Source of the DNA: a virus | Direction: 5' to 3' (one strand) | Length of the DNA: 40,158 nt | Virus record (IMG/VR): IMGVR_UViG_3300027763_000107 | Span: 1-40,158 of that record | Shown here: positions 3,360 through 39,974 of the stretch, piece by piece | How the letters are laid out: every line of letters starts with the position of its first letter | Position numbering within the stretch: position 1 is the first letter of the stretch | The notes under the pieces: generated by a model | Database searches by the model: none | What the model was told of the DNA's origin: nothing | The model's input: the letters and a program-made list of their open reading frames with translations, nothing else | Program-made: the position numbers and the translations under genes

Positions 3360-3700
3360 TATTCAGCCAATAACCAAGATGTGGTTGTTTCATGCCACAT
3401 ATACTTTTTTCCATCAGTAGGATACGGTATTGGGGATTCCCATAACCATGTAGATTGATTTAATGACCAACTGTTATAAGGTTTTGGTGAATAAAAAACA
3501 TCATTTGCTGAATCATAGGTATAACCATTTGCAGCATAATTACCACGCAAAGGAGTACCACCTAAAGAATGTTTATTTCCATGTGTGTTGTATGAAGTTT
3601 GAATCCATCCATTGCCAAACATACCGCTATCAATAACATCTTTATCGGCAACAATAACTTGTGAAACAACACCATCTATAACTTTAGCAAAATGACTCAT
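3359..3700 (-). CDS. Tail-fibre-associated protein, cyanophage-type (left copy)
   Basis: 113 residues opening MSHFAKVIDGVVSQVIVA, with GWIQTSYNTHG, then LRGNYAANGYTYDSANDVFY and a Trp-rich end (NQSTWLWESP...TTTSWLL). Proteins with this pattern are common among structural proteins of cyanophages and other aquatic phages. It overlaps the glycine-rich gene upstream by ATGA. The second copy at 37893-38279 is 128 residues: the 15 extra residues after the NTHGN motif repeat the Y-T-Y-D-S element found later in the protein, so one copy has gained or lost a repeat unit. Confidence 0.65.
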   Translation of the reverse strand: MSHFAKVIDGVVSQVIVADKDVIDSGMFGNGWIQTSYNTHGNKHSLGGTPLRGNYAANGYTYDSANDVFYSPKPYNSWSLNQSTWLWESPIPYPTDGKKYMWHETTTSWLLAE

Positions 3701-4590
3701 GCTGTATAACTCCCTGAAGCAGTAAAGCTAACAATAGTATAAGAACCGCTAGTAGTAATTGTTGGAGAGCCTGTAGTTGTTCCTGTGTATTGTGAAGTTA
3801 ATATTTTTAGAATTACAATTCCAGAACCGCCTGACCCTGATGTTCCAGATGTACTATATCCACCATTTCCACCACCACCACCACCAGTATTTGCCGTTCC
3901 TGATGCTTGACCTGAACCGGGGTTTCCAGCTCCACCTTGACCACCGCCACCAGAACCACCAGCACCTCGAGTGGAATTTCCTCCACCGCCACCACCACCG
4001 CCATAAGTTACGGAAGAACCAGTAATGCTTGATGCGTAGCCTGACCCACCAGCACCACCATTACCATTAGCATTTGTTCCAACAGTACCAGCACCGCCAC
4101 CGCCACCCCCTGAGGCTGCGGCAGCTCCATTACCGCCACGATTTCCTTGTGAAGAAATACTATCGCCACCAGCACCGCCCGGAGCAGTATCAACACCACC
4201 ACCACCACCACCAGAACCACCCATGCGACCATTTAATAAAGAGCCACCAGAATTAGGTGGAACTCCATATCCACCACCACCACCGCCATCAGCATAAATG
4301 CTTGCAAAAGAACTTCCAACTCCAGCATTTCCATATAATCCGTCTGAACCGCCAACTCCTGCACCACCAGCACCAATAGTTGCTGTGTAAACATTTCCTT
4401 TAATTAAAGAAAAGTTTGTGCCATACAAGACACCGCCAGCTCCACCACCGCCACCAAGATTTCGACCACCACCGCTACCACCACCAGCAACTACTAAATA
4501 TTCAACTCCATAAACAAGTGTTGGAGCAGTAGTTTGTGTAGAGTTATCGTTAAATGTAAGACCAGTAGTCCCGTTAATAATCATTGTCAT
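3697..4590 (-). CDS. Glycine-rich tail-fibre adhesin (left copy)
   Basis: 297 residues. A short N-terminal attachment segment (MTMIINGTTGLTFNDNSTQ, followed by VYGVEYLVVAGGG) precedes about 200 residues of poly-glycine clusters (GGGGGG separated by short polar loops). The C-terminal strand pair GIVILKI ... GSYTIVSFTASGSYTA is the usual end of glycine-rich phage fibres. Such domains form glycine sandwiches that carry exposed, hypervariable receptor-binding loops, as in T-even gp38-type adhesins. The copy at 38276-39169 has the same length and differs at about two dozen residues, several of them in the loops between glycine clusters. The His/Pro-rich reading frames on the other strand are compositional shadows. 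Confidence 0.8.
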   Translation of the reverse strand: MTMIINGTTGLTFNDNSTQTTAPTLVYGVEYLVVAGGGSGGGRNLGGGGGAGGVLYGTNFSLIKGNVYTATIGAGGAGVGGSDGLYGNAGVGSSFASIYADGGGGGGYGVPPNSGGSLLNGRMGGSGGGGGGVDTAPGGAGGDSISSQGNRGGNGAAAASGGGGGGAGTVGTNANGNGGAGGSGYASSITGSSVTYGGGGGGGGNSTRGAGGSGGGGQGGAGNPGSGQASGTANTGGGGGGNGGYSTSGTSGSGGSGIVILKILTSQYTGTTTGSPTITTSGSYTIVSFTASGSYTA

Positions 4591-4748
4591 GCTAATTGCT
4601 CCTGTGTAGGTCTAGACAATGTTGGATGTTCCCACTTAGCTATATAGTCACCTTTGCCATCTGAATCGTTTTGAAGGATGATTACAGTCATAAAATCTTT
4701 TTCTTTAAGGCTAGGATATAGAGCCATTATTTTTTCAAATAAATTCAT
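4587..4748 (-). CDS. XkdW-like small fibre protein (left copy)
   Basis: 53 residues: MNLFEKIMALYPSLKEKDFM, then ILQNDSDGKGDYIAKWEH and a PTQEQLA end. The pattern EKIxALYP...ILQNDxDGKGDYIxxW is that of XkdW-type phage proteins, which lie beside tail fibres. The start overlaps the stop of the upstream C1q-like gene (TAATG at 4748) and the stop overlaps the start of the glycine-rich gene (ATGA at 4590), so translation is probably coupled. Its homologue is at 39166-39333. Confidence 0.75.
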   Translation of the reverse strand: MNLFEKIMALYPSLKEKDFMTVIILQNDSDGKGDYIAKWEHPTLSRPTQEQLA

Positions 4749-5317
4749 TATGATGCCCTCAGTAAACAGCCTTGAAAATAAGTATATATATTTGCATCTG
4801 AACCACCCCTAAACCCAAGTGTTCCAGCTCCATTTACCCATCCATACAACTCAATATAATCAGTTGTCCCATTCATAGAAACAATAACTGAAGCAGTAAC
4901 AACATTTCCAGTAGAGATAGAATCTATACCTCTTATATATTCAGAACCATTTTTATAAAGTGAAATCATAAATCTAGTTACAGTTCCTACTGTTTCAACA
5001 GAAAAAGAACCATTAAGCTGATAGTAACCGGCTACTGTTGGAGTAAACCTACTAGAAGCAAAATTATTGTTTGTGTCCCATACTTCTGTTGCTAAATTTA
5101 TTTTTGTAAATGTAGCAGCAGTTACGGTTTGACTTCCAGCAGAATTGTAAGCATAAAAAGTTGGCATATTGCCTGATACCATAGCAACTCCAGATGCGTT
5201 TGGAACAGTAATAGTATTTGCACCAGCTTGTGTTTGAAACGAAAGATTACCGCTAGTATCACCACTAATTGCTATGGCAGTTCCAGCAGAAGTACCAGCA
5301 GAGATTATAGATGCCAT
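4748..5317 (-). CDS. Tail-fibre tip with C1q-like head (left copy)
   Basis: 189 residues. The N-terminal attachment region (about 1-50) carries the motif ISGDTSGNLSFQTQ and NTITVPNASG, shared with the genes at 5577-6173 and 39333-39974. The C-terminal domain has FYAYNSAGSQTVTA, FTKINLATEVWDTNNNF, RFTPTVAGYYQLNGSFSV and a final DYIELYGWV...GCLLRAS. That is the strand order of C1q/TNF-like trimeric jelly rolls used as receptor-binding tips. The head differs strongly from that of the right copy although the attachment region matches, which looks like tip swapping. The family call is from motifs only. Confidence 0.7.
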   Translation of the reverse strand: MASIISAGTSAGTAIAISGDTSGNLSFQTQAGANTITVPNASGVAMVSGNMPTFYAYNSAGSQTVTAATFTKINLATEVWDTNNNFASSRFTPTVAGYYQLNGSFSVETVGTVTRFMISLYKNGSEYIRGIDSISTGNVVTASVIVSMNGTTDYIELYGWVNGAGTLGFRGGSDANIYTYFQGCLLRAS

Positions 5318-21703: not shown

Positions 21704-21885
21704 TTCCATTCTCCTTTTTCATCAGCTCGATTGCCTTTAACCCATTGATCTTCAAAATCTCTTACCAACTTCCAATCCAACTTATGCTTGTGCATATATT
21801 CCCTAAAAACCTTTAAACCCCAAATCCTGCGCCACATGATGAGCTGGCGAACTGCACAACGATGTTTATGTTTTTGTTCATCCAT
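21700..21885 (-). CDS. Hypothetical protein, basic/aromatic
   Basis: 61 residues: MDEQKHKHRCAVRQLIMWRR, IWGLKVFREYMHKHKLDWKL, VRDFEDQWVKGNRADEKGEW. The HRCAVRQL...WGLxxFREYxxxH pattern is seen in short proteins of many aquatic phages as I recall. Overlaps the methyltransferase end by 8 bases. Function unknown. Confidence 0.6.
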   Translation of the reverse strand: MDEQKHKHRCAVRQLIMWRRIWGLKVFREYMHKHKLDWKLVRDFEDQWVKGNRADEKGEWK

Positions 21886-22633
21886 CTATTCTTTTTCTAA
21901 GCAAATTCCATGCTGTTGCTGCACAAAGGGGAACTTGTCCGTTTCCAATGGCTTTAAGTCTGTCCATTGCAGAGGCCATCCCATTAACCACTCTACAAAT
22001 ATTGGGTTCGGTTTTCCAACTATTCCTGTCAAGTCCCTTAATGCTTGATTTAAAGGGTATTGAGCTGGATGCCCTGATGGTCTTATTGGTTTCCAATTTG
22101 GCATTGTTCCCCTCTGTCCATCGCTTGCACTTGGAGTTGGATATTTTTGCAACAATCCAAATTCTTTCTCTTTTATGGTTTGCTCCAACATCGGCTGCTG
22201 AAAGCACTCCCCATTCCGCATCGAACCCCATTTGGGCCAGGTCTGCAAGGACTGTTCCAAGTCCTCTAGAAGTGAGCATTGGGGAATTTTCCACAAAAGC
22301 GTATCTAGGTCTAACTTCGCCAATGATTCTAGCCATTTCTTTCCACATTCCTGATCGCTCTGCCTCGATTCCCCCCCCCCTTCCTGCTGCTGAGATGTCT
22401 TGGCAAGGAAATCCTCCTGATACAACATCAACAATTCCTCTCCAAGGCTTTCCGTCAAAGGTTTGAACATCATCCCAAATTGGAAAACTCGGCAAAAGTC
22501 CGTCATTTTGCCTGGCACACAATACGCTTGCTGGATAGGCTTCCCATTCGACAGCGCAGACTGTTCTCCATCCAAGAAGGTGTCCCCCAAGTATTCCTCC
22601 ACCAGCGCCTGCGAAAAGAGCCAACTCATTCAT
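21878..22633 (-). CDS. DNA (cytosine-5) methyltransferase
   Basis: 251 residues, short for a C5 methylase (a typical one is 300-400), with a reduced target-recognition region. Motif I: LALFAGAGGGILGG (F7-G13). Motif IV: GGFPCQDIS with catalytic C77. Motif VI: ENSP at 115-118 (usually ENV). Motif VIII: ANHKRERIWIVA. Motif IX/X: AIGNGQVPLCAATAWNLL. No restriction partner is adjacent, so it is an orphan, probably protecting the phage from host enzymes. Codons 85-88 lie in a G10 run (22371-22380), which is striking in this AT-rich sequence. The fusion in frame is intact. Confidence 0.85.
   Translation of the reverse strand: MNELALFAGAGGGILGGHLLGWRTVCAVEWEAYPASVLCARQNDGLLPSFPIWDDVQTFDGKPWRGIVDVVSGGFPCQDISAAGRGGGIEAERSGMWKEMARIIGEVRPRYAFVENSPMLTSRGLGTVLADLAQMGFDAEWGVLSAADVGANHKRERIWIVAKISNSKCKRWTEGNNAKLETNKTIRASSSIPFKSSIKGLDRNSWKTEPNICRVVNGMASAMDRLKAIGNGQVPLCAATAWNLLRKRIDG
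22371..22380 (-). repeat. Ten-base G homopolymer inside the methyltransferase
   Basis: Ten consecutive G on the coding (minus) strand, in the loop following the PCQ catalytic motif (GRGGGIE). Surrounding DNA has no other long homopolymer G. Such tracts are prone to slippage; a one-base change would shift translation into another open frame. Confidence 0.8.
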
Positions 22634-28129: not shown

Positions 28130-28870
28130 TTAGCCCTTCATAATGTAAGCAAGAGCATAGTAAGGAGGAAGATTAGCGTTAGTTCCGCTTACACCAGCAG
28201 TAGCATTAGTTACGCTAATTCCAGTTGATGCTGCAACAATACTTAATGTTGCTGGTGTTCCTGGATTAGCTACCGCACCACCAGGAGCATTTTGTTGGGC
28301 AGTTCCAACTAAAGATGTTCCAGGGCTAGTTGCATGAGTATGAGTAGGATCAGTAACACTTGCAGTATGAGTATGAGAAACAACAATAGCATCGGCAGAA
28401 CCACCAGTTGCATTTACAGCATAAGTAGATCCAGCTCCAACAATAAAGCTATTGCGTAAATCAGGAGTTCCGTTTGTTCCATCGCATAAATACCAAGTTG
28501 CAGGAATAGAACCAGTAGATCCTGACCAAAGAATAATTCCTCCAGTAGGAACAGCAGGGGCTGATGCAGGAGCATTTTGCAGAATTGGATAAATATTATC
28601 TAATGTTTGGATCAATACAGAATTTGCTGTTTGAAGAACAAACTTATATGAATAGCCAGTAAGTAGCCAAATTTCTTGTGGAACTCGACCAGCAGCATCT
28701 AAAACAATAGGGTTTGCATTAGCAATCGTTCCAGCATTAGTTGTATAGGTTACTAATGGAGTAGAAGATCCAGCTTGATAGGTATAAATCAAACCTCCAG
28801 CTAAAGGAACTCCATTGTCATCAAAAAATTGCTGACCGATTCCGTATGGGGATAAAAGAACTGATGCCAT
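28130..28870 (-). CDS. Short tail fibre with collar-like domain
   Basis: 246 residues. N-terminal anchoring region MASVLLSPYGIGQQFFDDNG with GGLIYTYQAGSSTPLVTYT, an anchor found on P22-like virions as I recall. From about 110 on: GGIILWSGSTGSIPATWYLC DGTNGTPDLRNSFIVGAG. The G-I-I-x-W...P-x-x-W-x-L-C-D-G...D-L-R-x-x-F pattern is a tail-collar domain. Its tip has HTHTASVTDPTHTHA and PPYYALAYIMKG, as in collar/T4 gp12-like short fibres with His-bound metal. It follows the ejection gene cluster and precedes lysis genes. It probably contributes to adsorption. Confidence 0.75.
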   Translation of the reverse strand: MASVLLSPYGIGQQFFDDNGVPLAGGLIYTYQAGSSTPLVTYTTNAGTIANANPIVLDAAGRVPQEIWLLTGYSYKFVLQTANSVLIQTLDNIYPILQNAPASAPAVPTGGIILWSGSTGSIPATWYLCDGTNGTPDLRNSFIVGAGSTYAVNATGGSADAIVVSHTHTASVTDPTHTHATSPGTSLVGTAQQNAPGGAVANPGTPATLSIVAASTGISVTNATAGVSGTNANLPPYYALAYIMKG

Positions 28871-28872
28871 GA

Positions 28873-31146
28873 TTATTCCTTGCCTATGTCTTTAAGTTTG
28901 ATTCCTGCGCCTGGTTTTAACGCTTCTTTAATTTTTTGAGCTTCTTTAACATTATGAATTGCGCTTCTTGCTATTGTTCCAACAGGAATGACATTTCCAC
29001 CCAAAGTGTAATTTAAACCAATTTCTGCTGCTTTTTTACCTTTTTCAGCCATTGCTGAAGTAAATGTATTAGATTCATTTACATAAGCTCCTGCTGGTCT
29101 TTCTTGAATGTTTCTTGCAGTCTTGCCCAATGCTTTTAATTGAGAATTAACTTCAGGGCCAACAATAGCTAAAATTTTAGGATCAACATTGCTTAGAGCT
29201 TGATTAAATCCTTTTTGCGTAAATGTTCCTGATCCATCAGGCAATATTCCAGCTTTAGATTTAAGCCAATTAACAATTCCAGCAGCCATAACTTGTCTAG
29301 CTTGAGAGTCTGCTCCCAAATGAGAAACCATCATGTCAATATCATTTTTTTTGCCATTAACAACAAACTTTTGAATAAAATCATCAGCTTGAACTTTTCC
29401 ATTAATAGCAGCTTTGTAAGCCTTGTCTTGGTTAATTAAATCAAAACGCTGTTTAGCAGCAGATCTAGCATCATCAGCCAAAACTTTTAATTCTTTGGTT
29501 TCGCCAATTAAAGGCAAATCTTCTAAAGCCTCCCTTACTTTTCCAAGAGCAAATTCAGCGTTTCCATCTCCAGCTCTATCGGCTTTACGCATTTCAGAAG
29601 CAAGGTTGGTTCTCATTGCCTCAAACTGCTCAAAAGTCATGGGTTCGCCACGCTTGAACGCATTAACTTGCCTCATTATCGAATCAGGCAAAAACTCTGT
29701 TTTAAGATTTTTCTTTAAAGAATTTAAAGCGTTTTCAGCAAAAGCTACACCATCTATAGGAAAATCGCCTCCAGCAGCATCTCTTAATGCTTGATATTTA
29801 GTTCCAATGACTTCTAATCTAGCTTTATCAATATCTTTATATGAATCAATTAAAGATTGACCATTTTCTACATGGTTTGTTCCATACACATCAGGAGAAG
29901 CTTTTTCTTTAATGGCATCAATGTTTTCAACAAGCTGTCTATTTTGCTCATTGTATCTATTGGCTAATTCAGGATTTTTACCTCTGCTATTCATTTCTTC
30001 AGAAAATAACTGAGGGCTTCTAGTCGCTTGACCCTCAGATAAACGAATAGGAATAGGCAAAGAATCAGCTTCTAGCTGGCGCTCTAATACAGGAGCATTT
30101 ACTTGTTCAGGCTTTAGCTTTTGTAATTCTTGTTTTAATTCAGGACTTGCTCTAGAAATTGCATCTTGCAATACAGTTTCTTTGGAAACTTGTGCAGCCC
30201 CAACTCCAGCCATAGTTGGCTTAACTTCTTCCATCTTAGGAAATGCTTCTTCAAACTTTTTGCCCAAAACAGCTTTAGCTTTTGAACCACCTTCAGACAC
30301 TTTTTCAAGAACTTTTGCACCGCCAGGAATAGCGACAAATTGTTCAGGATCATAAATTGCACTCTTAACAACCTCTCCAGCAAATCCACCAGGATTCTCT
30401 GCGATTGCGCTTAATGCTTGTTTTGTAGTTTCTACTGGGCTTTGAGCAAACTTGCTGACACCCTCAACAAAACTCTTACCTTTTTTAATTAACTTTTCTT
30501 CGGCAGCTTTTTTATCAGTTTCAGTAAAACCTGGGATGCCAAGGCTTGAAGCTGTATATTCAATAACAGGAGCTAATAAGCTCTTTTCTTGCCAATCTTT
30601 AGCAGATATTTCAGATAAAGGTTTTACAAATTCTTTGCCCAATTTTTTAGACATTTCGCCCATTTGCTTAATAGCTGGTTTTTCAACTTTTTTGCCATCT
30701 GAAGGCGCAACATCGCCAACTTCAGTCCAAATATCAGCAAAGCTAGTGCTTGCAGGAGCGCCAGCAACTGTTACTGATGGGCCTTTAGCAACATAAGAAG
30801 ATTTTGGGTTAATCTCTACATGAACTGGATCTTTAGATCCAAATGGTCTATGAAGTCCAAATTGATCTAAAAATGCAGCAGGAACTTCAGAAGAAATATC
30901 CGCAGCCATACCTTTTTCATGCAAACTTGTGCCAGGCTTTGCCACCAAATTAGGGTTAGATTTTCTTTTTCCAAATAGCTGTATTTGTTCTTCGGTTGAT
31001 CTTGCTCCGCTAGTTAAAGGCAATTCTCTGCCTGTTTTAGCTTGCCAAGCATCATTAGCAGCTCTAAGCCTGCTAGACATATCCTCATTTAAACCGCCAA
31101 ATCTATCAACTGGCGCTGCTTCCCAAAGATCAGCAAAATTAGCCAT
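28873..31146 (-). CDS. Ejection protein with N-terminal M15 peptidase (P22 gp16 position)
   Basis: 757 residues (P22 gp16 is 609). Residues 22-115 form an M15 (VanY/L-Ala-D-Glu endopeptidase-like) domain: LTSGARSTEEQ, SLHEKGMAADIS with H76 and D83, and DPVHVEI with H109. The remaining ~640 residues are helical and Ala/Lys/Glu-rich, e.g. AMAEKGKKAAEIGLNYTLGG, without known motifs. This is typical of a DNA-injection channel protein. It is the last of three ejection-type genes. It would cut the host peptide crosslinks during entry and line the injection channel. Confidence 0.8.
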   Translation of the reverse strand: MANFADLWEAAPVDRFGGLNEDMSSRLRAANDAWQAKTGRELPLTSGARSTEEQIQLFGKRKSNPNLVAKPGTSLHEKGMAADISSEVPAAFLDQFGLHRPFGSKDPVHVEINPKSSYVAKGPSVTVAGAPASTSFADIWTEVGDVAPSDGKKVEKPAIKQMGEMSKKLGKEFVKPLSEISAKDWQEKSLLAPVIEYTASSLGIPGFTETDKKAAEEKLIKKGKSFVEGVSKFAQSPVETTKQALSAIAENPGGFAGEVVKSAIYDPEQFVAIPGGAKVLEKVSEGGSKAKAVLGKKFEEAFPKMEEVKPTMAGVGAAQVSKETVLQDAISRASPELKQELQKLKPEQVNAPVLERQLEADSLPIPIRLSEGQATRSPQLFSEEMNSRGKNPELANRYNEQNRQLVENIDAIKEKASPDVYGTNHVENGQSLIDSYKDIDKARLEVIGTKYQALRDAAGGDFPIDGVAFAENALNSLKKNLKTEFLPDSIMRQVNAFKRGEPMTFEQFEAMRTNLASEMRKADRAGDGNAEFALGKVREALEDLPLIGETKELKVLADDARSAAKQRFDLINQDKAYKAAINGKVQADDFIQKFVVNGKKNDIDMMVSHLGADSQARQVMAAGIVNWLKSKAGILPDGSGTFTQKGFNQALSNVDPKILAIVGPEVNSQLKALGKTARNIQERPAGAYVNESNTFTSAMAEKGKKAAEIGLNYTLGGNVIPVGTIARSAIHNVKEAQKIKEALKPGAGIKLKDIGKE

Positions 31147-31148
31147 AG

Positions 31149-32411
31149 TTATAGCAATCCAAGTGATTTAGCCAATTTAATCTTATCGCCCATTCGTCTT
31201 TGTTCATCAGGACTCATAGAAGCCTTTAGCTTTCTAACTTCTTCAGGACTAGATTCTTGGAAAATTCTGTAATCATTAATTTTATTAAAAATTGCCATCT
31301 TATCTTGATACTCTTGAGGATTTTTAACATTACCCAAATAAGTAGCTTTTGCTTGATTTAAGCGTTCAACACCAATAAGCTGATCTGCCATTAACTTGAT
31401 AGCGCCTTCAGTCATTTTCTTATTAGGATTGGCTGCTTCTGCAATTTGACGAGCCAAATCAGTATTGCCACCAGTTAAGGTTAGCATTGCTGAATTTTTA
31501 GCCAATTCATCTGTAGCAGTTTTTTCGGCTGTATAAATATCAATTCCAAGTGCTTGAGCAATGCCTGATGCCAATTCTTTTCTAGCACCGCCTGTGCTTG
31601 TAAATGCTTCAGAAGAAAGTTTTTTAATGTTTTGAAATGTTGCAATTCTAGGTTCTGCACCTTTAGCCAAAGCCATAGTTTCAGTCAAATCTTTAGAAGC
31701 AATTTCTGATGGAGTTGTAGCAAATGCCACATCAGCTCTAGATGGATTTAGCTTTTTAGGAGCAAACTGTCCTTGCAACTGAGCAGGAGCGCCTGTAGTA
31801 GGAGCAGTAGAAGCACCAACTTGAGCGTTACCCTCGCTTGGAGAAACAATTTGATTAGGCCCTGATTTAAGACCAATAATCTCGCCAGCAGCATTAGTAG
31901 TGTATTGAGGAGTTTGAAGTCCTTGCTGACCAGTTGCGCCTATACGAGCTTGAATTGAATTCAGCATATCTTGACGAATATTTCCTGCTTGGTTTGGATC
32001 GTTAAGCATTTGAAAATATTTAGCTGTAATGGTATGAGCCATAGGAGCAGGAACTCCTTGCTTAATCATACGCTCAGTAGCCCCAACCAAAGCATCTCCA
32101 GCAGCAGTAACTGTTTTACTGTCTTTAGGATTAACATTTTTTAATCTTGGATCATCAACTAAAGCATTTGCTTCATCGGCAGCAATACCAAAATAATCTT
32201 TTTGAAGTCCTGCTTTTGCTTTTTCAGCACCAGTAACGGCAGTAGAAGTTTCAGCTTTGGCTTTTTCAATAGAAGGCTGAAATAATTCTTTTTCTTTTTG
32301 CAAAGCAAGATTAGATCTTCCAAGATTAACTAAATCCTGTATAGATGTTGCTTGTGGAGCTTGAGCATTTCCATAAATGCTTGCATCAGGTAGAGAGCTA
32401 AGTGCTGGCAT
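31149..32411 (-). CDS. Ejection protein (P22 gp20 position)
   Basis: 420 residues (P22 gp20 is 471). Predominantly helical, rich in Ala, Lys, Gln and Glu (ALQKEKELFQPSIEKAKAET, MPAL SSLPDASIYGNAQAPQ at the start). It lacks Cys, and signal or TM segments are absent. Its place between a gp7-like and a gp16-like protein in the same order as P22 gp7-20-16 marks it as a DNA-injection protein. Sequence identity to P22 is not visible, so the call is from order and composition. Confidence 0.65.
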   Translation of the reverse strand: MPALSSLPDASIYGNAQAPQATSIQDLVNLGRSNLALQKEKELFQPSIEKAKAETSTAVTGAEKAKAGLQKDYFGIAADEANALVDDPRLKNVNPKDSKTVTAAGDALVGATERMIKQGVPAPMAHTITAKYFQMLNDPNQAGNIRQDMLNSIQARIGATGQQGLQTPQYTTNAAGEIIGLKSGPNQIVSPSEGNAQVGASTAPTTGAPAQLQGQFAPKKLNPSRADVAFATTPSEIASKDLTETMALAKGAEPRIATFQNIKKLSSEAFTSTGGARKELASGIAQALGIDIYTAEKTATDELAKNSAMLTLTGGNTDLARQIAEAANPNKKMTEGAIKLMADQLIGVERLNQAKATYLGNVKNPQEYQDKMAIFNKINDYRIFQESSPEEVRKLKASMSPDEQRRMGDKIKLAKSLGLL

Positions 32412-32421
32412 GATTTATTCC

Positions 32422-33177
32422 TTATGCTACTTGAACTGGAGAAACAGCAAAAGAATTGCCTGAAGTGGGAGTAAATGATCCTCCTCCTGCATTACCACCC
32501 ATTGCAGCTTGCGTTGAATTAATTGGCTGATTCATATTATTCATAGCATAATAAGCTGCTGCATTTCCTGCTGTATTAGCTATGCCACCATAAATATTGC
32601 CTTGTGCAATTTGAGAAGCAGCTTGAGCATTACCAGCAGCAGAAGTTAAATTTGCAACATTTGTGCCAGTTCCAATCATTGCGTTGGCTTGACCAGTTGT
32701 TCCTGTTAATCCCATAGATGCAATATTTTGCAAGTTAGAATAAATATTACCTCTTTGAACTTGAAATTGATTAAAAGCATTGGCATATTCGCCTGAAGCA
32801 AAGTTTTGGCTATAATCCTGTAAACTACGCAAAGCATTACCACCTATAGCTCCGCCACCAACATTACTAGCCATCATATTAGCTTGCTGACCTTGACGCA
32901 ATCTAAAGTCATAACCAGGAGCTAAAGTAGCATTTAAATCTTTATTAGTAAATTGTTGAGTAAAATAAGGATCTTCACTCATTTTATTAAGAGCTGTAAC
33001 TCCTTTATTGACATAAGGGTTATAAACATCAGCTGCTGCTGCTCCAGTTGCCAATAATTGACCTTGCGCTCTAGCTGCTGCATCGGCTTGAGTTTGAGCT
33101 GCGCTTTTAGTTGCTTGGCTGGTCATGTAACCGCCAATAACTGCGCCTCCTACGATTGCTGTTGCGACTGCTGACAT
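32422..33177 (-). CDS. DNA transfer/ejection protein, P22 gp7-like
   Basis: 251 residues (P22 gp7 is 229). The glycine/alanine-rich N-terminus (MSAVATAIVGGAVIGGYMTS) is membrane-active-looking. QTQADAAARAQGQLLATGAA, VNKGVTALNKM, the ...APGYDFRLRQGQQA motif and SGEYANAFNQFQVQRGN are recurrent in small phage ejection proteins of this type. The C-terminus is Asn/Gly/Ala-rich. First of the ejection triad. It leaves the virion with the DNA and probably forms part of the membrane channel. Confidence 0.7.
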   Translation of the reverse strand: MSAVATAIVGGAVIGGYMTSQATKSAAQTQADAAARAQGQLLATGAAAADVYNPYVNKGVTALNKMSEDPYFTQQFTNKDLNATLAPGYDFRLRQGQQANMMASNVGGGAIGGNALRSLQDYSQNFASGEYANAFNQFQVQRGNIYSNLQNIASMGLTGTTGQANAMIGTGTNVANLTSAAGNAQAASQIAQGNIYGGIANTAGNAAAYYAMNNMNQPINSTQAAMGGNAGGGSFTPTSGNSFAVSPVQVA

Positions 33178-34011
33178 TTAATCTCTCCTTATTGCAAGGC
33201 TTAATGCTTGCCGATAGTCAATAGTAATTTCTTCGCCCAAATTACCACCTTGGCATCCATTTATAGCCTTTTTTGCCACTAAATCAATGTTCCCATTATC
33301 TCTTAAAACCATGATTGCGTTAATATTTTTTGAATGATTTGTGTATCTACCAGCAGGGGTTCGTTTGCCATTAATACGAGCTGGAGCAATAATTTCACTT
33401 TCTGCAATATTGCCTGTAGCAAATACACCTTTTCCATCAATTCTTGAATTAGCAACCATTATTTTGTAATTGCCAAAAGGCATAGGAATTTGATCTTCCA
33501 TGTTTTCAGTCTGTTTTCTGACTGTTTCATGGTCAAATCCAAACTCTGCTATTGCCAAATAATAATCGGCAATATCAGGCGAATGGTCTAAAGTAAGAAG
33601 TAATTCCTGTGATTTTTGATTTTCTTGCCAAGTAATGCTTTTATTTAAATAAATAGCTTCTAGCTTTTCTACTTCAGTTTCATTAGTTGAATAGACATTT
33701 TGCCAAACCATATCTTCATGGATATAGCCTATTTTGCGACCTGGCTTTGAAACAAAAGTCTGAGGAGCTACCAATTCTGTATGCGATCCATCCTCATTAA
33801 CCATTGTTACTCGACCTTTGAGCATAATGTTTAAATGCTCAGTAGTCTGATAATGCCCAATAGAAAATGTTCCTGCTGGAATGGATACTTCTCTAATGTA
33901 GATATTAGGAGCAAATATATGCTTTACAGGGCAATCAGCCTGTTTTTCTTTTAAAAAGTGCTTTTCAAGTTCTTGCACCTTTTGTTCTATTATGACTTGA
34001 AGTTCAGACAT
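33178..34011 (-). CDS. Cupin-SET fusion protein
   Basis: 277 residues from the ATG at 34011, which overlaps the end of the preceding gene; the in-frame upstream extension would overlap it further and has no ribosome site. N-terminal cupin (about 30-125): YIREVSIPAGTFSIGHYQTT EHLNIMLKGRVTMVNEDG, with H53 and H59 as candidate ligands. A helical linker (about 126-182) follows. The C-terminal SET domain (about 183-267) has GKGVFATGNI, the GRYTNHSKNINA segment (matching R-F-x-N-H-S-x-x-P-N) and GEEITIDY (matching G-E-E-L-x-x-D-Y). SET proteins methylate lysine using SAM. The target is unknown; it lies between nozzle and ejection genes, so a virion or host protein is possible. A non-catalytic binder is the alternative. 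Confidence 0.75.
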   Translation of the reverse strand: MSELQVIIEQKVQELEKHFLKEKQADCPVKHIFAPNIYIREVSIPAGTFSIGHYQTTEHLNIMLKGRVTMVNEDGSHTELVAPQTFVSKPGRKIGYIHEDMVWQNVYSTNETEVEKLEAIYLNKSITWQENQKSQELLLTLDHSPDIADYYLAIAEFGFDHETVRKQTENMEDQIPMPFGNYKIMVANSRIDGKGVFATGNIAESEIIAPARINGKRTPAGRYTNHSKNINAIMVLRDNGNIDLVAKKAINGCQGGNLGEEITIDYRQALSLAIRRD

Positions 34012-34243
34012 TGTAATAAGGCACTTTATAGATCTTGCCATTAACAGACATTTCAATAAATCCTACAGGATTAGCTGGCAAAACAGCCCCCCCTGATGTT
34101 GCTGAAGGCGCTGTTCTATTAAAATTAAGCAAATTTGAAAAGAAAATCTGCCAAGCTCTTGTCGGTCTTTTGGTCTGCTCATCCATAAAATCAGTCTGTG
34201 GATAAGGATTATCTTGGCTTGGCCCAAATATCTGATTAGCCAT
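34004..34243 (-). CDS. Hypothetical protein of the tail-ejection module
   Basis: 79 residues: MANQIFGPSQDNPYPQTDFM, DEQTKRPTRAWQIFFSNLLN and an ending VGFIEMSVNGKIYKVPYYNV. The TRAWQIFFSNLL and GFIEMSVNGKxYKVPYY elements recur in small proteins of this place in P22-like aquatic phages as I recall. Start overlaps the nozzle stop; end overlaps the cupin-SET start. A structural or assembly role is likely but unproven. Confidence 0.6.
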   Translation of the reverse strand: MANQIFGPSQDNPYPQTDFMDEQTKRPTRAWQIFFSNLLNFNRTAPSATSGGAVLPANPVGFIEMSVNGKIYKVPYYNV

Positions 34244-36372
34244 TAGTTTTCTCCAACTGATGCTTTTAAGTTAGCAGACACTATCACCGCTTTAACTGGA
34301 TCAGTAACTACGACTTCATAGATTCGATCCCTTGCCTGACCTAATCTGCGCCAAATAATACGATTTTGGTATTTACCGACTTTACCAATACCAGCCCAAT
34401 GCTCATTTGACCAAGTAGAACCGCCATCATTTGACCATCTCAGCATAGCTTGAGGGTTTATACCAATGTCGTTATCGCCCAATGGAAAAGTTTCTACGCC
34501 TTGCAATCCAACTCCAGGTTGGAACTGTATCTGCAATTCATCAAAATACTGCCTTTGGAAGTCTGTTACCAAATGAGGGCATCTACGCATCCTACGGATA
34601 TTCTGACCATTATCGGTATAGTTATTAGGATCTAAGCGATAAATCTGCCCATTCTCCCAATCTCCTACCAAAACTGAACCTTGGAAAAAGGCAGCGCAGT
34701 TTGATCTGTGGCGCTTATAGTTGTTTTGGTTATCGCACCAAAGCCATTTATGCCACATTTGGGTAGAGCCGTCATAAACCCAAGTTAAGTCTAGGCTTGG
34801 AAATGTCACTACATAGCACTCATGCCCTTCTAGCTGATATGTATAAGCTACAGCATCGCCAATATATTGATTAACAAGGGTATTTTCTACAGCATGAGTA
34901 GAAATTCTTTGTGGAAAATAGCCATTCATTTGCACAATAACGGCTTGACCACGATCATTTCTTGAAACATAAGCAAAAGAATTGCCAAATCGAGCCATAC
35001 TAAATTCAGCAGCTATTCCATGTTGGCTAGATGCGCCAGGAATACGCTGGAAAGGAAATGGGAAAGTTCCAACATCTGCCCACACTTCTGAAGTTTTTTC
35101 GCCTAATAAATAGATTTGACCATGATCCACAATTAAAGAAACAAGATCATCAGGCCCTGTAAATTTACTAGCAAAAGCCAATCCATAAGTAATAGGGGAA
35201 AGCAGATCAGAAGAAGCATATTGCTGAGTATTAGGTCTGTTATAGACAAAGTAGTTATCTACTACATCAACAGAAGATCCGCCTGTAAATGCTCCATCTG
35301 TCGCTGGTAACTCGCTAAAGTTCAGCGCATACATAGTTCTAGAGGTAACAGTTTGGCTATTATTGATAACATAGTTACCAGTAGTTCCAGTTCCTGTACC
35401 AAAAGTCAAAGTAAGAGTTAGCCCTGTTCCTGCTCCATCTGAGGAAGTTGAAGCATTGTTTGCAGGGTTAGATGTATATTGACCTGAAAAAGTCCTTGTA
35501 AGCCCTGTAACAGCTCCTGAGCCTCCAATACTTGTTACTGTATAAGTAGCAGGGCTAGAACCATAAACACCGCCCAAAACAGTTATATTTTCGTTTACTG
35601 CATATCCTGTGCCAGCAGCAGCGATTGTTTCGCTAAGAACTGTTCCGCTACCTAAAGCAGTAATAATGGTTTTAGCCGTTACTGTAGAACCTTGAATAGT
35701 CTGTCCAACATACAAAGTTCCGCTTGCTACAGCGCTAACAGTCAAAGTGGTTGTTGCCATAGAAGCTGTTATTACCGCAGCTACAGTAGCTGAATTCATG
35801 CGAATTGCAGTAGAAATAGTATGACTTTGATTTAAAGTCCAAGTGCTTCCTGATCCTGAAACAATGACAGTTTCATTAGAAATGCCAACTCCAAATAAGG
35901 CTTGATTGGCAGCAATAGTTCCTGAAAGAACTCTAGTTACAGTTAAAGTAGTTCCGCTAATTGTGCCTTCAAATACAGCAGAATTTGGGTTAGAAATGCG
36001 CCATGTATAGCGATTTGAACCATCTACGATATAGACATTAGTGCCATTATCGGCAATGCTAACTTGACCAGTTGAGGTATTTAATTGACCAATAATAGTT
36101 GCTGTAAAGTTTGTTCCCATTACATAAACATAAGGGCCACATACCGCTACAAGGTAATCTTGACCTGAAACGGCTCTCATTCCTCTAACAGCTTGAGCAG
36201 TTTGTAGTGTTACGACATTAGTAAGACCTGGAGTTGGATAAAGCGCAACAACTCCCCTTGATCCTGGTTGTTTTGTAGGATCAATTTCAGGTCTAAAGTT
36301 TATACACTCCTGTGCATCTTGATAGATGGAAGGAGCTTCATAAGCCGAACCAACAAAGCCAAAATCAGCCAT
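34243..36372 (-). CDS. Tail nozzle, P22 gp10-like, with beta-repeat insert
   Basis: 709 residues; P22 gp10 has 472. The N-terminus MADFGFVGSAYEAPSIYQDA with ECINFRPEIDP and the region LYPTPGL are typical of gp10 (packaged DNA stabilisation). The core resumes from about 346 (YALNFSELP, DNYFVYNRPNTQQYASS) to the C-terminal region YRLDPNNYTDNG. Between about 134 and 345 lies a Thr/Ser/Gly-rich insert with several [18 protein letters not shown] units. Without it the length (about 497) is close to gp10. It plugs the portal-adaptor channel until injection. Located beside the gp4-like adaptor. Confidence 0.8.
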   Translation of the reverse strand: MADFGFVGSAYEAPSIYQDAQECINFRPEIDPTKQPGSRGVVALYPTPGLTNVVTLQTAQAVRGMRAVSGQDYLVAVCGPYVYVMGTNFTATIIGQLNTSTGQVSIADNGTNVYIVDGSNRYTWRISNPNSAVFEGTISGTTLTVTRVLSGTIAANQALFGVGISNETVIVSGSGSTWTLNQSHTISTAIRMNSATVAAVITASMATTTLTVSAVASGTLYVGQTIQGSTVTAKTIITALGSGTVLSETIAAAGTGYAVNENITVLGGVYGSSPATYTVTSIGGSGAVTGLTRTFSGQYTSNPANNASTSSDGAGTGLTLTLTFGTGTGTTGNYVINNSQTVTSRTMYALNFSELPATDGAFTGGSSVDVVDNYFVYNRPNTQQYASSDLLSPITYGLAFASKFTGPDDLVSLIVDHGQIYLLGEKTSEVWADVGTFPFPFQRIPGASSQHGIAAEFSMARFGNSFAYVSRNDRGQAVIVQMNGYFPQRISTHAVENTLVNQYIGDAVAYTYQLEGHECYVVTFPSLDLTWVYDGSTQMWHKWLWCDNQNNYKRHRSNCAAFFQGSVLVGDWENGQIYRLDPNNYTDNGQNIRRMRRCPHLVTDFQRQYFDELQIQFQPGVGLQGVETFPLGDNDIGINPQAMLRWSNDGGSTWSNEHWAGIGKVGKYQNRIIWRRLGQARDRIYEVVVTDPVKAVIVSANLKASVGEN
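35338..35973 (-). repeat. Beta-repeat insert in the nozzle gene
   Basis: Codons for about residues 134-345 of the nozzle contain repeated units of the type G-T-x-x-T-V-x-x-V-x-S-G-x-(x)n-G-x-G-I/V. The same unit type appears in the adaptor (36940-37323). They resemble extended loops or Ig-like add-ons on an otherwise conserved protein. Confidence 0.6.
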
Positions 36373-36381
36373 TTTCCAGCC

Positions 36382-37578
36382 TTATCTAAAGAATCCACCA
36401 TTAAGAATCCAACCAGCATCTTTTTGACGGCTAGAAAGCATTGCATCAGCAAACTGAGCGCTTTGCATTGGTTTCATATTAGTGCGTTTAAGAGTTGCTT
36501 TAGCTTGTGCAGCATAAGCGTTAATCATCTGTATTTGCGTTGCAGAGGCTTTGCCATACATAGGCATCAAACGCTCTGCCAAACACCATCTAAGAGCCAT
36601 TGAATAGCCTTGTGGAAGAACTATATCGTCATACATAGTGCCATAGTTACTAAATATGGTTTGAGCAAACAAATGGACTTCGCCTTGGGATGGATTAGGC
36701 CATAAGAAAACATTTCCTGATTGCTCATTTGCATTGAAATAAACAGCTTTAGGCCAAGGGCCATTGAGCGTTTTCAAACCAATAGAATTGTAATTATCCA
36801 AAGCCAAAATTGCCATTTGGTAATCTAAACCGCCATTAGCAATAGGCTGACCATTAGAGCTAGTGTTTACCCTTACATAGGCAGAATCTAATCCTAATGG
36901 TTTTTGATAGTAAGCAGTTATCGTTGTAGGAACAATAGTTCCAGTAATAGTTGTAGAAGCTACAGTTTGAGATGCGCTTACTGTATAAGTTCCAGTTCCA
37001 CCAGTTCCGCTAACTAAAGCGCTGATGGTTGTTCCAGCAGTAATACCAGTTCCGCTAATCACCGATCCAACATTGACAGCTCCTGAAGTAACCGCAGTTA
37101 CAGTAAGGGTAGTCCCTGATATTGAGCCTGTAAATACTGGGGTTTGAGTACCTTGAACAATATTAAGCAAATAAGTGCCTTGTTCATTTACATTACCGCC
37201 AGCTCCAGTTAAAGAGCGAACAATACGAGTTCCAGCAGTAATGCCTTGACCTTTAAGATATTGTCCTTGTGCTACAGCTCCTGAATTAATGCCAGTAACT
37301 GTCATTACATTGCCTGAAAAAGTAGCAGGAAATGAAGCTCCAATAAAGTTTGCAGTAGATGGATCAGGGCCAATCGTATATTGAACTTGTCCTGGAACAA
37401 CTGGGAAAATGATCTCAGTAATGTTAAAAACCATCATATCCTCATTTGACCATTGGTCTATGAGGTCATTCATCATTTCAAAAGCATCTTGAGCAGCATC
37501 GGCTGAAGGCTGTTCTCCAGCCTCTAAAGCTCCAATGTCTTTAAGCGATCTACTAATAATATCAATCGGCTTTGTCAT
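36382..37578 (-). CDS. Head-to-tail adaptor, P22 gp4-like, with beta-repeat insert
   Basis: 398 residues; P22 gp4 has 166. N-terminal helices [20 protein letters not shown] and [20 protein letters not shown] match the gp4 pattern, and the C-terminal helices [20 protein letters not shown], with a final MLSSRQ-containing tail, are also gp4-like. Between about 86 and 213 are two ~63-residue beta-repeats ([20 protein letters not shown] and [20 protein letters not shown]). Next to the P22 gp10-like nozzle. The adaptor joins portal and nozzle. The repeat insert accounts for much of the extra length. Confidence 0.75.
36940..37323 (-). repeat. Two tandem beta-repeats in the adaptor gene
   Basis: Codons for about residues 86-150 and 151-213 of the adaptor are two diverged copies sharing T-V-T-x-(V/I)-x-S-G-A-V, G-x-G-I-T-A-G-T and a T-Y-L/T-V ending. 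The unit type also occurs in the neighbouring nozzle gene. Confidence 0.6.
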
Positions 37579-37893: not shown

Positions 37894-38279
37894 TATTCAA
37901 CCAATAACCAAGATGTAGTTGTTTCATTCCACACATACTTTTTTCCATCAGCAGGACATGGTATTGGCGCTTCCCATAACCATGTAGATTGATTTAATAC
38001 CCAACTTGAGTATGGTTTAGGCGCATAAAACACATCATTTATTGAATCATAAGTATAGCCATTAGCAGCGTAATTACCACGCAAAGGAGTGCCACCTAAA
38101 GAAAACGCATTATTTTCTGAATCATAGGTGTAGTTATTAACGGCATGATGTCTGTTTCCATGCGTATTGTATGAAGTTTGAATCCATCCATTGCCAAACA
38201 TACCGCTATCAATAACATCTTGTTCAGCAACAATAACTTGGGAAACAACACCATCTATAACTTTAGCAAAATGACTCAT
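37893..38279 (-). CDS. Tail-fibre-associated protein, cyanophage-type (right copy)
   Basis: 128 residues, opening MSHFAKVIDGVVSQVIVAEQ. Compared with 3359-3700 it has an extra 15-residue stretch (HHAVNNYTYDSENNAF region) that duplicates the later YTYDS element before LGGTPLRGNYAANGYTYDSI. The Trp-rich end NQSTWLWEAP...TTTSWLL is kept. The ATGA overlap with the glycine-rich gene is the same as on the left. Confidence 0.65.
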   Translation of the reverse strand: MSHFAKVIDGVVSQVIVAEQDVIDSGMFGNGWIQTSYNTHGNRHHAVNNYTYDSENNAFSLGGTPLRGNYAANGYTYDSINDVFYAPKPYSSWVLNQSTWLWEAPIPCPADGKKYVWNETTTSWLLVE

Positions 38280-39169
38280 GCTGTATAACTCCCTGAAGAA
38301 GTAAAGCTAACAATAGTATAAGAACCGCTAGTAGTAATTGTTGGAGAACCAGTAGTTGTTCCTGAGTATTGTGAAGTTAATATTTTTAAAATTACAATTC
38401 CTGAACCGCCTGACCCTGAAGTGGCAGATGTACTATATCCACCATTTCCACCACCACCACCGCCAGTATTAGCTGTTCCTGATGCTTGACCTGAACCAGG
38501 GTTTCCAGCTCCACCTTGACCACCACCGCCTGAACCGCCAGTACCTCGAGTGGTATTAGCTCCACCGCCACCACCACCGCCATAAGTTACGGAAGAACCA
38601 GTAATGCTTGATTCGTACCCTGAACCACCATTACCACCATTACCATTAGCATTTGTTCCAGCAGTACTAGCACCGCCACCACCACCGCCTGAAGCTGCGG
38701 CAGCTCCATTACCGCCACGATTTCCTTGTGAAGAAATACCATCACCACCAACACCGCCAGGAGCAGTATCAACACCGCCACCGCCACCACCTGATCCACC
38801 CATGCGACCACTTAATAAAAATCCACCTGAATTAGGAGGAACTCCATAGCCACCACCACCACCGCCATTAGCATAGATGCTTGCAAAAGAACTTGCAGCT
38901 CCAGTATTTCCAATTAATCCGTCTGAACCACCAACTCCAGCACCACCAGCACCAACAGTTGCTGTGTAAACATTTCCTTTAATTAAAGCTAAGTTTGTGC
39001 CATATAAGACACCACCAGCTCCACCTCCACCGCCAACATTTCGACCACCACCGCTACCACCACCAGCAACTACTAAATATTCAACTCCATAAACAAGTGT
39101 TGGAGCAGTAGATTGTGTTGAGTTATCGTTAAATGTAAGACCAGTAGTCCCATTAATAATCATTGTCAT
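38276..39169 (-). CDS. Glycine-rich tail-fibre adhesin (right copy)
   Basis: 297 residues, the same length as 3697-4590 and about 92% identical by eye, with no gaps. Differences cluster in the loops between glycine runs (for example GNAGVGSSF versus GNTGAASSF, GSGYASS versus GSGYESS). N-terminal MTMIINGTTGLTFND and C-terminal GIVILKI and ITTSGSYTIVSFT are almost unchanged. Two related alleles of the same adhesin in one window are the main sign of a duplicated or chimeric fibre region. Confidence 0.8.
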   Translation of the reverse strand: MTMIINGTTGLTFNDNSTQSTAPTLVYGVEYLVVAGGGSGGGRNVGGGGGAGGVLYGTNLALIKGNVYTATVGAGGAGVGGSDGLIGNTGAASSFASIYANGGGGGGYGVPPNSGGFLLSGRMGGSGGGGGGVDTAPGGVGGDGISSQGNRGGNGAAAASGGGGGGASTAGTNANGNGGNGGSGYESSITGSSVTYGGGGGGGANTTRGTGGSGGGGQGGAGNPGSGQASGTANTGGGGGGNGGYSTSATSGSGGSGIVILKILTSQYSGTTTGSPTITTSGSYTIVSFTSSGSYTA

Positions 39170-39333
39170 GCTAATTGCTCCTGTGTAGGTCTAGACAATG
39201 TTGGATGTTCCCACTTAGCTATATAGTCACCTTTGCCGTCTGAATCGTTTTGAAGAATGATTGAACTATATCTTCCAAAATCAGCTTCGGTTAATGTCGG
39301 ATATAAAGCCATAATTTTTTCGTATAAAGTCAT
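39166..39333 (-). CDS. XkdW-like small fibre protein (right copy)
   Basis: 55 residues from the ATG at 39333 (MTLYEKIMALYPTLTEADFG), which forms TAATG with the upstream stop; a longer frame starting 21 bases upstream exists but overlaps that gene. The C-terminal 35 residues (ILQNDSDGKGDYIAKWEH, ending PTQEQLA) match the left copy (4587-4748). The KEKDFMTV part of the left copy is replaced by TEADFGRYSS here. Confidence 0.7.
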   Translation of the reverse strand: MTLYEKIMALYPTLTEADFGRYSSIILQNDSDGKGDYIAKWEHPTLSRPTQEQLA

Positions 39334-39974
39334 TATGCAGCCCTTACTAAACAACCATTTAATGTAGTTCCACCTGAACCGCCATTTAATGCACCATTAG
39401 TTCCACCAGTCATATAAACATATAATTCTGCATAATCAGTAGAACCATTCATATAAACTACTACGGAAGTGCCAATAGAAAAAATTTGATTTGTTCCGCT
39501 AGAAAATTGACTAGCTGAAACTGCACCACCATTTTTATAAATAGCTACTTGTCCATTATTAGGATAAGTTCCACCAGCAGAACCCATGCTTGCATAACAA
39601 TTAAACTGATAATAACCAGCAACAGTAGGGGTAAAACGATAATTAGTGGTATTAAAGTTACTGTTGGTATCAAAATCTTCTGCACTTAAACTTGCCTTAG
39701 TCCAAGTCGATTGTGAGATACCGCCTTGATAGCCTGATATGTACCCACTAAAAGCTGGTCCATTACCGACTACATTGGTTGCTAGTTTAGCTTGTGTTAC
39801 TGAAGCATCAGAAGGTGTAATCGTACTTGCAGTAGTTAATATTGTTCCTGTTGCATTAGGAACAGTAATAGTATTTGCACCATTTTGAGTTTGAAAAGCA
39901 AGATTACCTGATGTATCACCAGCAATAGCTATTGCAGTTCCACTTGTAGTTCCAGCAGATATAGTAGATGCCAT
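39333..39974 (-). CDS. Tail-fibre tip with C1q-like head (right copy)
   Basis: 213 residues. The N-terminal attachment region MASTISAGTTSGTAIAIAGD and NTITVPNATGTILTTAS align with the left copy's. A linker (DASVTQAKLATNVVGNG) absent from the left copy follows. The head TWTKASLSAEDFDTNSNFNT, RFTPTVAGYYQFNCYASMGS and ELYVYMTGGT...GCLVRAA keeps the C1q-like strand order but differs from the left head in most loops. Suggests tip replacement after the conserved anchor. Confidence 0.7.
   Translation of the reverse strand: MASTISAGTTSGTAIAIAGDTSGNLAFQTQNGANTITVPNATGTILTTASTITPSDASVTQAKLATNVVGNGPAFSGYISGYQGGISQSTWTKASLSAEDFDTNSNFNTTNYRFTPTVAGYYQFNCYASMGSAGGTYPNNGQVAIYKNGGAVSASQFSSGTNQIFSIGTSVVVYMNGSTDYAELYVYMTGGTNGALNGGSGGTTLNGCLVRAA

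Follow-up and report, generated by a model that had tools for sequence, protein, structure and literature searches.

SET domains are the enzyme domains that mark histones in human cells, and the locus described here raises the question of what such a domain does when it is fused to a cupin and encoded among the virion genes of a phage. The DNA analysed (the window, 40,158 nt of an IMG/VR virus record) belongs to a P22-like podovirus, as seen from its portal (phrog_156), coat (phrog_283), scaffold, terminase, gp10-like and gp7-like genes.

The fusion gene and its slot among the virion genes

The fusion gene, its domains and its neighbours are arranged as follows:

33178..34011 (-): cupin-SET fusion gene, 277 aa, ATG start; matches PHROG 34170 (function not assigned) over its full length, E 6.3e-95; AlphaFold2 model available
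33682..33942 (-): predicted cupin (RmlC-like) domain, residues about 24-110; phrog_12032 E 5.9e-36; VIA-align Z about 10 to cupins
33481..33681 (-): predicted helical linker, residues about 111-177; helices 114-121, 126-138, 144-156 and 161-168
33202..33480 (-): predicted SET domain without SET-I, residues about 178-270; G193/G195, R217, R222, N225-H226-S227, E261 and Y266
34004..34243 (-): small upstream protein, 79 aa, overlapping the fusion gene by 8 nt; no family match
34243..36372 (-): head-closure protein Hc3, P22 gp10-like; phrog_578 E 6e-102
32422..33177 (-): DNA ejection protein, P22 gp7-like, directly downstream; phrog_598 E 5.1e-18
31149..32411 (-): probable second ejection protein (P22 gene-20 position), 420 aa; assigned by position, no convincing family match
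28873..31146 (-): probable third ejection protein (P22 gene-16 position), 757 aa; assigned by position; PF02557 E 1.3e-5
28130-28870: tail collar fibre-like gene, separate from the cupin-SET gene

The start is shared with close relatives, which align with the protein from their initial MS or MT. Besides the overlap with the upstream gene, the open reading frame directly abuts the downstream gene, which starts at position 33177, in line with the coupling to its neighbours noted in the initial annotation. The AlphaFold2 model of the protein, calculated from 34 rows, reached a pLDDT of 90.4 and a pTM of 0.86 and contains both folds that had been claimed for the fusion. Among 21 near relatives, the median pairwise dN/dS amounted to 0.12 for SET, 0.10 for the cupin and 0.07 for the linker. 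The fusion protein is under strong purifying selection, and the values for SET and cupin argue that both domains are maintained.

The placement among virion genes, also part of the initial annotation, holds beyond the window. In the search for the same fusion in other phages, 96 distinct fusions were obtained. A gp7-like gene was detected downstream of the fusion gene in 84 of 101 cases and downstream of the cupin-only gene in 47 of 73 (genes with at least 500 nt downstream were counted, nine more being too close to a contig end), and a gp10-like gene upstream of 63 of 85 fusions and 47 of 71 cupin-only genes (genes with at least 2500 nt upstream); since the neighbour profiles were built from the neighbours themselves, the misses may be divergent genes.

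The slot between the gp10-like closure gene and the gp7-like ejection gene is that of gene 14 in P22, which directly precedes gene 7, and of gene 13 in T7, which directly precedes gene 14. Cupin-only proteins occupy the gene-14 slot in P22-like phages and the exact gene-13 slot in the T7-like Sphaerotilus phage SnaR1. In Pfam, T7 gp13 is named 'probable scaffold protein' (PF11090) and P22 gp14 is DUF2824. On the basis of this slot, of SnaR1 and of the scaffold name, we favour an assembly factor over an adhesin as the role of the cupin. The proteins of P22 and T7 share the gene position with the cupin and are similar in size to the cupin-only proteins. A common descent of P22 gp14 and the cupin was rejected: the hhalign comparison of gp14 with a cupin-only profile gave a probability of 0.3, and no sequence relation was found. 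T7 gp13 weakly matched an acetyltransferase (E 0.39) and P22 gp14 a glyoxalase (E 0.008).

A competing idea sees in the protein a short tail fibre that binds the receptor, the cupin serving as adhesin and SET adding a further recognition domain. It takes its appeal from PHROG and record names, namely 'short tail fiber protein' (phrog_12032) and 'tail fiber adhesin' (phrog_24280), and from a paper that reports an RmlC-like cupin of phage phiAP1 as annotated short tail fibre, with no experimental validation (PMC8703784). The two PHROG families comprise cupin-only proteins whose cupin is homologous to that of the fusion and which lie in the same slot, as in Thalassomonas phage BA3, Vibrio phage 234P9 and SnaR1, where the first gene for an ejection or internal virion protein follows them. 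However, such names appear to be annotations, and together with the strong purifying selection, the assembly-factor slot and the separate tail collar fibre-like gene in the window, this makes a tail fibre very unlikely.

Some further features of the window were observed. In the probable third ejection protein, residues 36-87 at the N-terminus form a stretch resembling VanY-type carboxypeptidases, which makes it a candidate for a virion-borne cell-wall peptidase. Residues 123-189 of the gp10-like closure protein and residues 146-213 of the adaptor-like protein encoded at 36382-37578 (-) (SU10_adaptor, PF24175) each match phrog_21413 and phrog_38233, which gives the impression of one module inserted into two neighbouring tail proteins. 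In the adaptor-like protein, residues 108-209 additionally match multicopper oxidase PF00394 (E 6.5e-5, above the cut-off), probably a beta-sandwich insert. The 297-aa glycine-rich proteins encoded at 3697-4590 (-) and 38276-39169 (-) (phrog_2295) are 92% identical to one another, and their neighbours at 4748-5317 and 39333-39974 (phrog_15750) are also paired, with 44% identity; by sequence, this is a duplicated gene pair.

SET fold, active site and the missing SET-I segment

Pfam SET (PF00856) matched the window protein with E 3.9e-4 and 21.2 bits, just below the cut-off of 22.4, which was exceeded by seven of eight relatives scanned. A SET-only profile of 10 rows retrieved, from the solved structures, MLL1 (E 3.4e-8) and vSET (E 4.6e-6), the latter being PBCV-1 A612L, a minimal viral SET with H3K27 methyltransferase activity. 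Residues 177-270 of the model superimposed on MLL1 with Z 10.8 and on vSET with Z 9.8, in each case over 80 aligned residues at 2.0 Å, with 32% identity to vSET, so that the fold prediction suggested in the initial annotation did return a SET fold. A second AlphaFold2 model, calculated for L215, a distant lineage with 31% identity to the window protein, showed the same two folds, its SET part reaching Z 12.6 to MLL1 and 11.3 to vSET.

The NHS and GEE-x3-DY motifs first noticed in the window protein are present and are widely kept. In the 96 distinct fusions, some of which are also part of the profile used for aligning them, G195 is conserved in 96, R222 in 95, N225 in 94, H226 in 93 and Y266 in 94. 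One Gln replaces H226; the other non-matching letters at these five positions are X or gaps, and two relatives (L029 and L034) end at a contig edge ahead of the Tyr. At the third position of NHS, 67 of the fusions have Ser and 26 have Ala. A loss of the Tyr or of the NHS motif in homologues was thus not observed, and in a 12-row alignment all three SET lineages retain the cofactor-binding and catalytic positions. A chance match is ruled out, as the two fold models, the profile matches and the residue conservation concur. By predicted fold and by its GxG, NHS-type and E-x-x-x-(D/N)Y motifs, the domain is assigned to the SET family, and with its intact-looking active site it looks like a working enzyme.

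The domain differs from known members in one respect. In 87 of 87 scorable fusion sequences (21 further sequences, each missing one strict pattern, were left out), the GxG motif and the Asn of NHS are spaced by 32 residues. The same spacing is about 66 in MLL1 (KMT2A), as read off the SET-profile alignment, and 53, 53 and 60 in three free-standing bacterial SETs out of a sample of six loci, the other three of which (L308, L309 and L313) had no frame with both motifs. MLL1 is the top match both by structure and by profile; MLL acts on histone H3 as part of a large complex. The phage domain has the compact SET core in common with vSET, a single free-standing SET without pre- or post-SET, but it is fused to a cupin and lacks the SET-I segment that vSET has. 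A post-SET is also absent, since 9 to 20 residues remain C-terminal to the Tyr in the fusions. In known SET enzymes SET-I lines or helps to build the substrate groove. Its absence means that substrate binding must differ or be lost. On account of the short spacing, we file the domain as a SET-fold variant and not as a standard SET enzyme. Because the shortening is identical across the scorable lineages, the loss of SET-I looks like a trait of this SET subfamily.

The missing segment and the fixed spacing are also what would be expected if SET were structural or regulatory, keeping the fold and perhaps SAM binding, with no protein methylation, and serving as a C-terminal decoration or as an oligomer or adhesion domain of a tail protein. 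The naming of the related cupin-only family as short tail fibre or adhesin fits this too. We consider it rather unlikely, since the cofactor and catalytic positions, including Tyr266, are among the most conserved of the protein, and this in all three lineages.

Occurrence of the family and exchange of the SET module

In IMG/VR, a relative of the whole protein is encoded in 463 of 537 stretches with the family pattern and a relative of the SET part in 359 of 376 (stretches, not contigs); the loci analysed number at most 80 per search. Among 50,697 phage records, 57 gave a match, eight of these over at least 80% of the length. Species genomes contributed seven loci, all in metagenome-assembled genomes (MAGs), and of 369 genomes from the class to which one such MAG belongs, 14 gave a SET match with E <= 0.001, two of these being already known fusions. 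The statement in the initial annotation that SET proteins are mainly eukaryotic or effector-type proved too narrow: free-standing bacterial SETs occur in the sampled genomes, and phage SETs are already annotated.

The family itself is not new, because PHROG 34170 covers it and one GenBank record carries a SET-type name. This record, MW202744 (49% identity to the window protein), is named 'pbcV-1 histone H3-lys 27 methyltransferase structure', and gives no function beyond that structure-based name. Like the Rhodoferax phage P26218_30 protein (52% identity), it is a cupin-SET fusion; the named-phage fusions and PHROG 34170 have the same full-length architecture and gene neighbourhood as the window protein and differ just by divergence. 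For phage Ps15, ORF62 is reported as a SET-domain protein (PMC9025141). In the open-access papers searched, neither a cupin-SET phage protein nor methyl-lysine in phage virions was found. The present analysis adds the modular history of the family, the absence of SET-I and the assignment of the slot.

The N-terminus of the window protein is predicted to adopt the double-stranded beta-helix (cupin) fold: the single-sequence search with Pfam Cupin_2 gave E 0.19, and residues 23-110 of the model aligned with HP0902, ectoine synthase and other cupins with Z about 10. Of the metal-ligand-type histidines noted initially, the window protein does carry H53, H59 and H98, whereas a metal site is not conserved in the 96 fusions. 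H53 is found in 85, H59 in 92 and H98 in 58 of them. At position 55, all 77 distinct cupin-only domains have His, and the fusions have Gln in 68 and His in 21 of 96. The canonical cupin metal motif consists of three His and one Glu. With H98 in just 58 fusions and mostly Gln at position 55, the canonical metal site is not a common feature, and a metal enzyme as the general role of the cupin is ruled out.

The cupin is a widespread phage protein that usually occurs without SET. In the 302 loci listed, 301 cupin frames were counted, duplicates included. The cupin-only proteins differ from the fusion in position 55 and in having, instead of SET, 6-47 residues C-terminal to the domain (frames cut at contig ends left out). 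No third type of C-terminal module was seen among the 301 frames listed.

A cupin tree was calculated from 100 rows, 39 of them with and 61 without SET. The SET label changes on it at least five times, and the AU test rejects a single clade of SET-bearing proteins (p 0.00017). This tree leaves out two of 102 rows, L162 with a split frame and L245, which runs off its contig and whose label 'cupin-only' is wrong because the start of the SET linker is visible at the contig end. A quick tree of all 102 rows gave six label changes, from an alignment of only 103 columns with many forks unsettled. SET-bearing proteins form three groups: that of the window, that of Pseudoalteromonas phage PH1, and L271. 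The boundary of the exchange is seen in L219 (with SET) and L220 (without), the frame of the latter closing at a stop codon 87 nt short of the contig end: their cupins are nearly identical and diverge just ahead of the first helix common to the SET forms. The exchanged cartridge thus consists of the linker and SET. The second half of the linker occurs only in SET-bearing proteins. In these sequences, SET forms an exchangeable module at the C-terminus, carried by at least three separate lineages of the cupin.

A free-standing phage SET gene was not found, either in the 80 SET-only loci listed or by tblastn of the SET part against the 50,697 phage records, which yielded eight records, all with the cupin fusion. 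In 77 of the 80 loci, cupin and SET share one open frame; of the other three, L149 and L189 start at the edge of a contig, and the frame of L162 is split. An origin by a single fusion of a free-standing phage SET is thus unsupported, with the cupin in frame nearly always and the single SET clade rejected. In L162 (246-1158), cupin and SET lie in separate overlapping frames, which may be a sequencing error or a genuine split.

Candidate function and substrate

Our best explanation, to which we would give an even chance, is that the protein is a tail- or ejection-assembly cupin carrying a SAM-dependent protein-lysine methyltransferase cartridge that acts on a phage protein. It would be expressed late from the operon shared with the ejection proteins. 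The cupin would dock on a structural or ejection protein of the phage, SET would methylate one or more lysines of the phage protein at or near the docking site, and this methylation would tune assembly or ejection. The basis consists of the two predicted folds, active-site conservation, purifying selection, operon position and the modular gain and loss of SET, and the recurrence of the pairing in separate cupin lineages lends it support. From sequences and models we infer SAM binding, methyl transfer and a phage-protein substrate; the assembly role is suggested by analogy to the P22 gene-14 and T7 gene-13 slot. SET must be dispensable for the slot, as many cupin-only phages do without it.

A scan of the gp7-, gp10- and gp20-like proteins, the adaptor, the small upstream protein and the coat protein for conserved lysines revealed no compelling substrate. 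In 62 SET-linked orthologues of the adjoining gp7-like protein, no lysine is kept at 60% or more, which speaks against a fixed-site lysine in this protein. The gp10-like protein has no invariant lysine, the best being kept in 24 of 31 and 29 of 38 rows. K269 and K364 of the adaptor are present in 25 of 25 SET-linked sequences, and also in four and all five, respectively, of five from cupin-only phages. In the 79-aa upstream protein, K73 is conserved in 21 of 21 SET-linked and also in both cupin-only rows. K25 of the same protein is found in 20 of 21 SET-linked rows and replaced by Arg in both cupin-only rows; as these are just two, it is a lead only. SET-linked rows numbered only five for the gp20-like and nine for the coat protein.

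The outcome of the scan could also point to a host protein as the one methylated, either late from the cytoplasm or by an effector ejected with the DNA, two options partly foreseen in the initial annotation. Host proteins are the targets of SET enzymes from intracellular bacteria, and the gene directly adjoins the ejection genes. Nevertheless, the slot proteins of T7 and P22 are small and are annotated as internal virion or probable scaffold protein and for head morphogenesis, and expression would presumably be late, when host take-over is already past. A host substrate therefore seems quite unlikely to us.

Returning to the assembly cupin with a methyltransferase cartridge, we propose more tentatively, and at less than even chances, a wider hypothesis. 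Podoviruses might possess an exchangeable SET-I-less lysine-methyltransferase cartridge that methylates their own tail or ejection proteins (or host proteins, if ejected), with the cupin and the linker replacing SET-I as docking surface. If active, the protein would represent a protein-methylation step inside phage virion assembly, in a common phage group, and a SET enzyme able to work without SET-I, substrate docking being handed to the fused domain. Cupin-only and cupin-SET phages constitute natural pairs, in which a methylated lysine would be expected to be present in the one group, whereas in the other the position could vary freely. Another methylation gene of the window, encoding a DNA methyltransferase (21878-22633 (-), phrog_363, E 3.8e-65), is separate from the cupin-SET gene.
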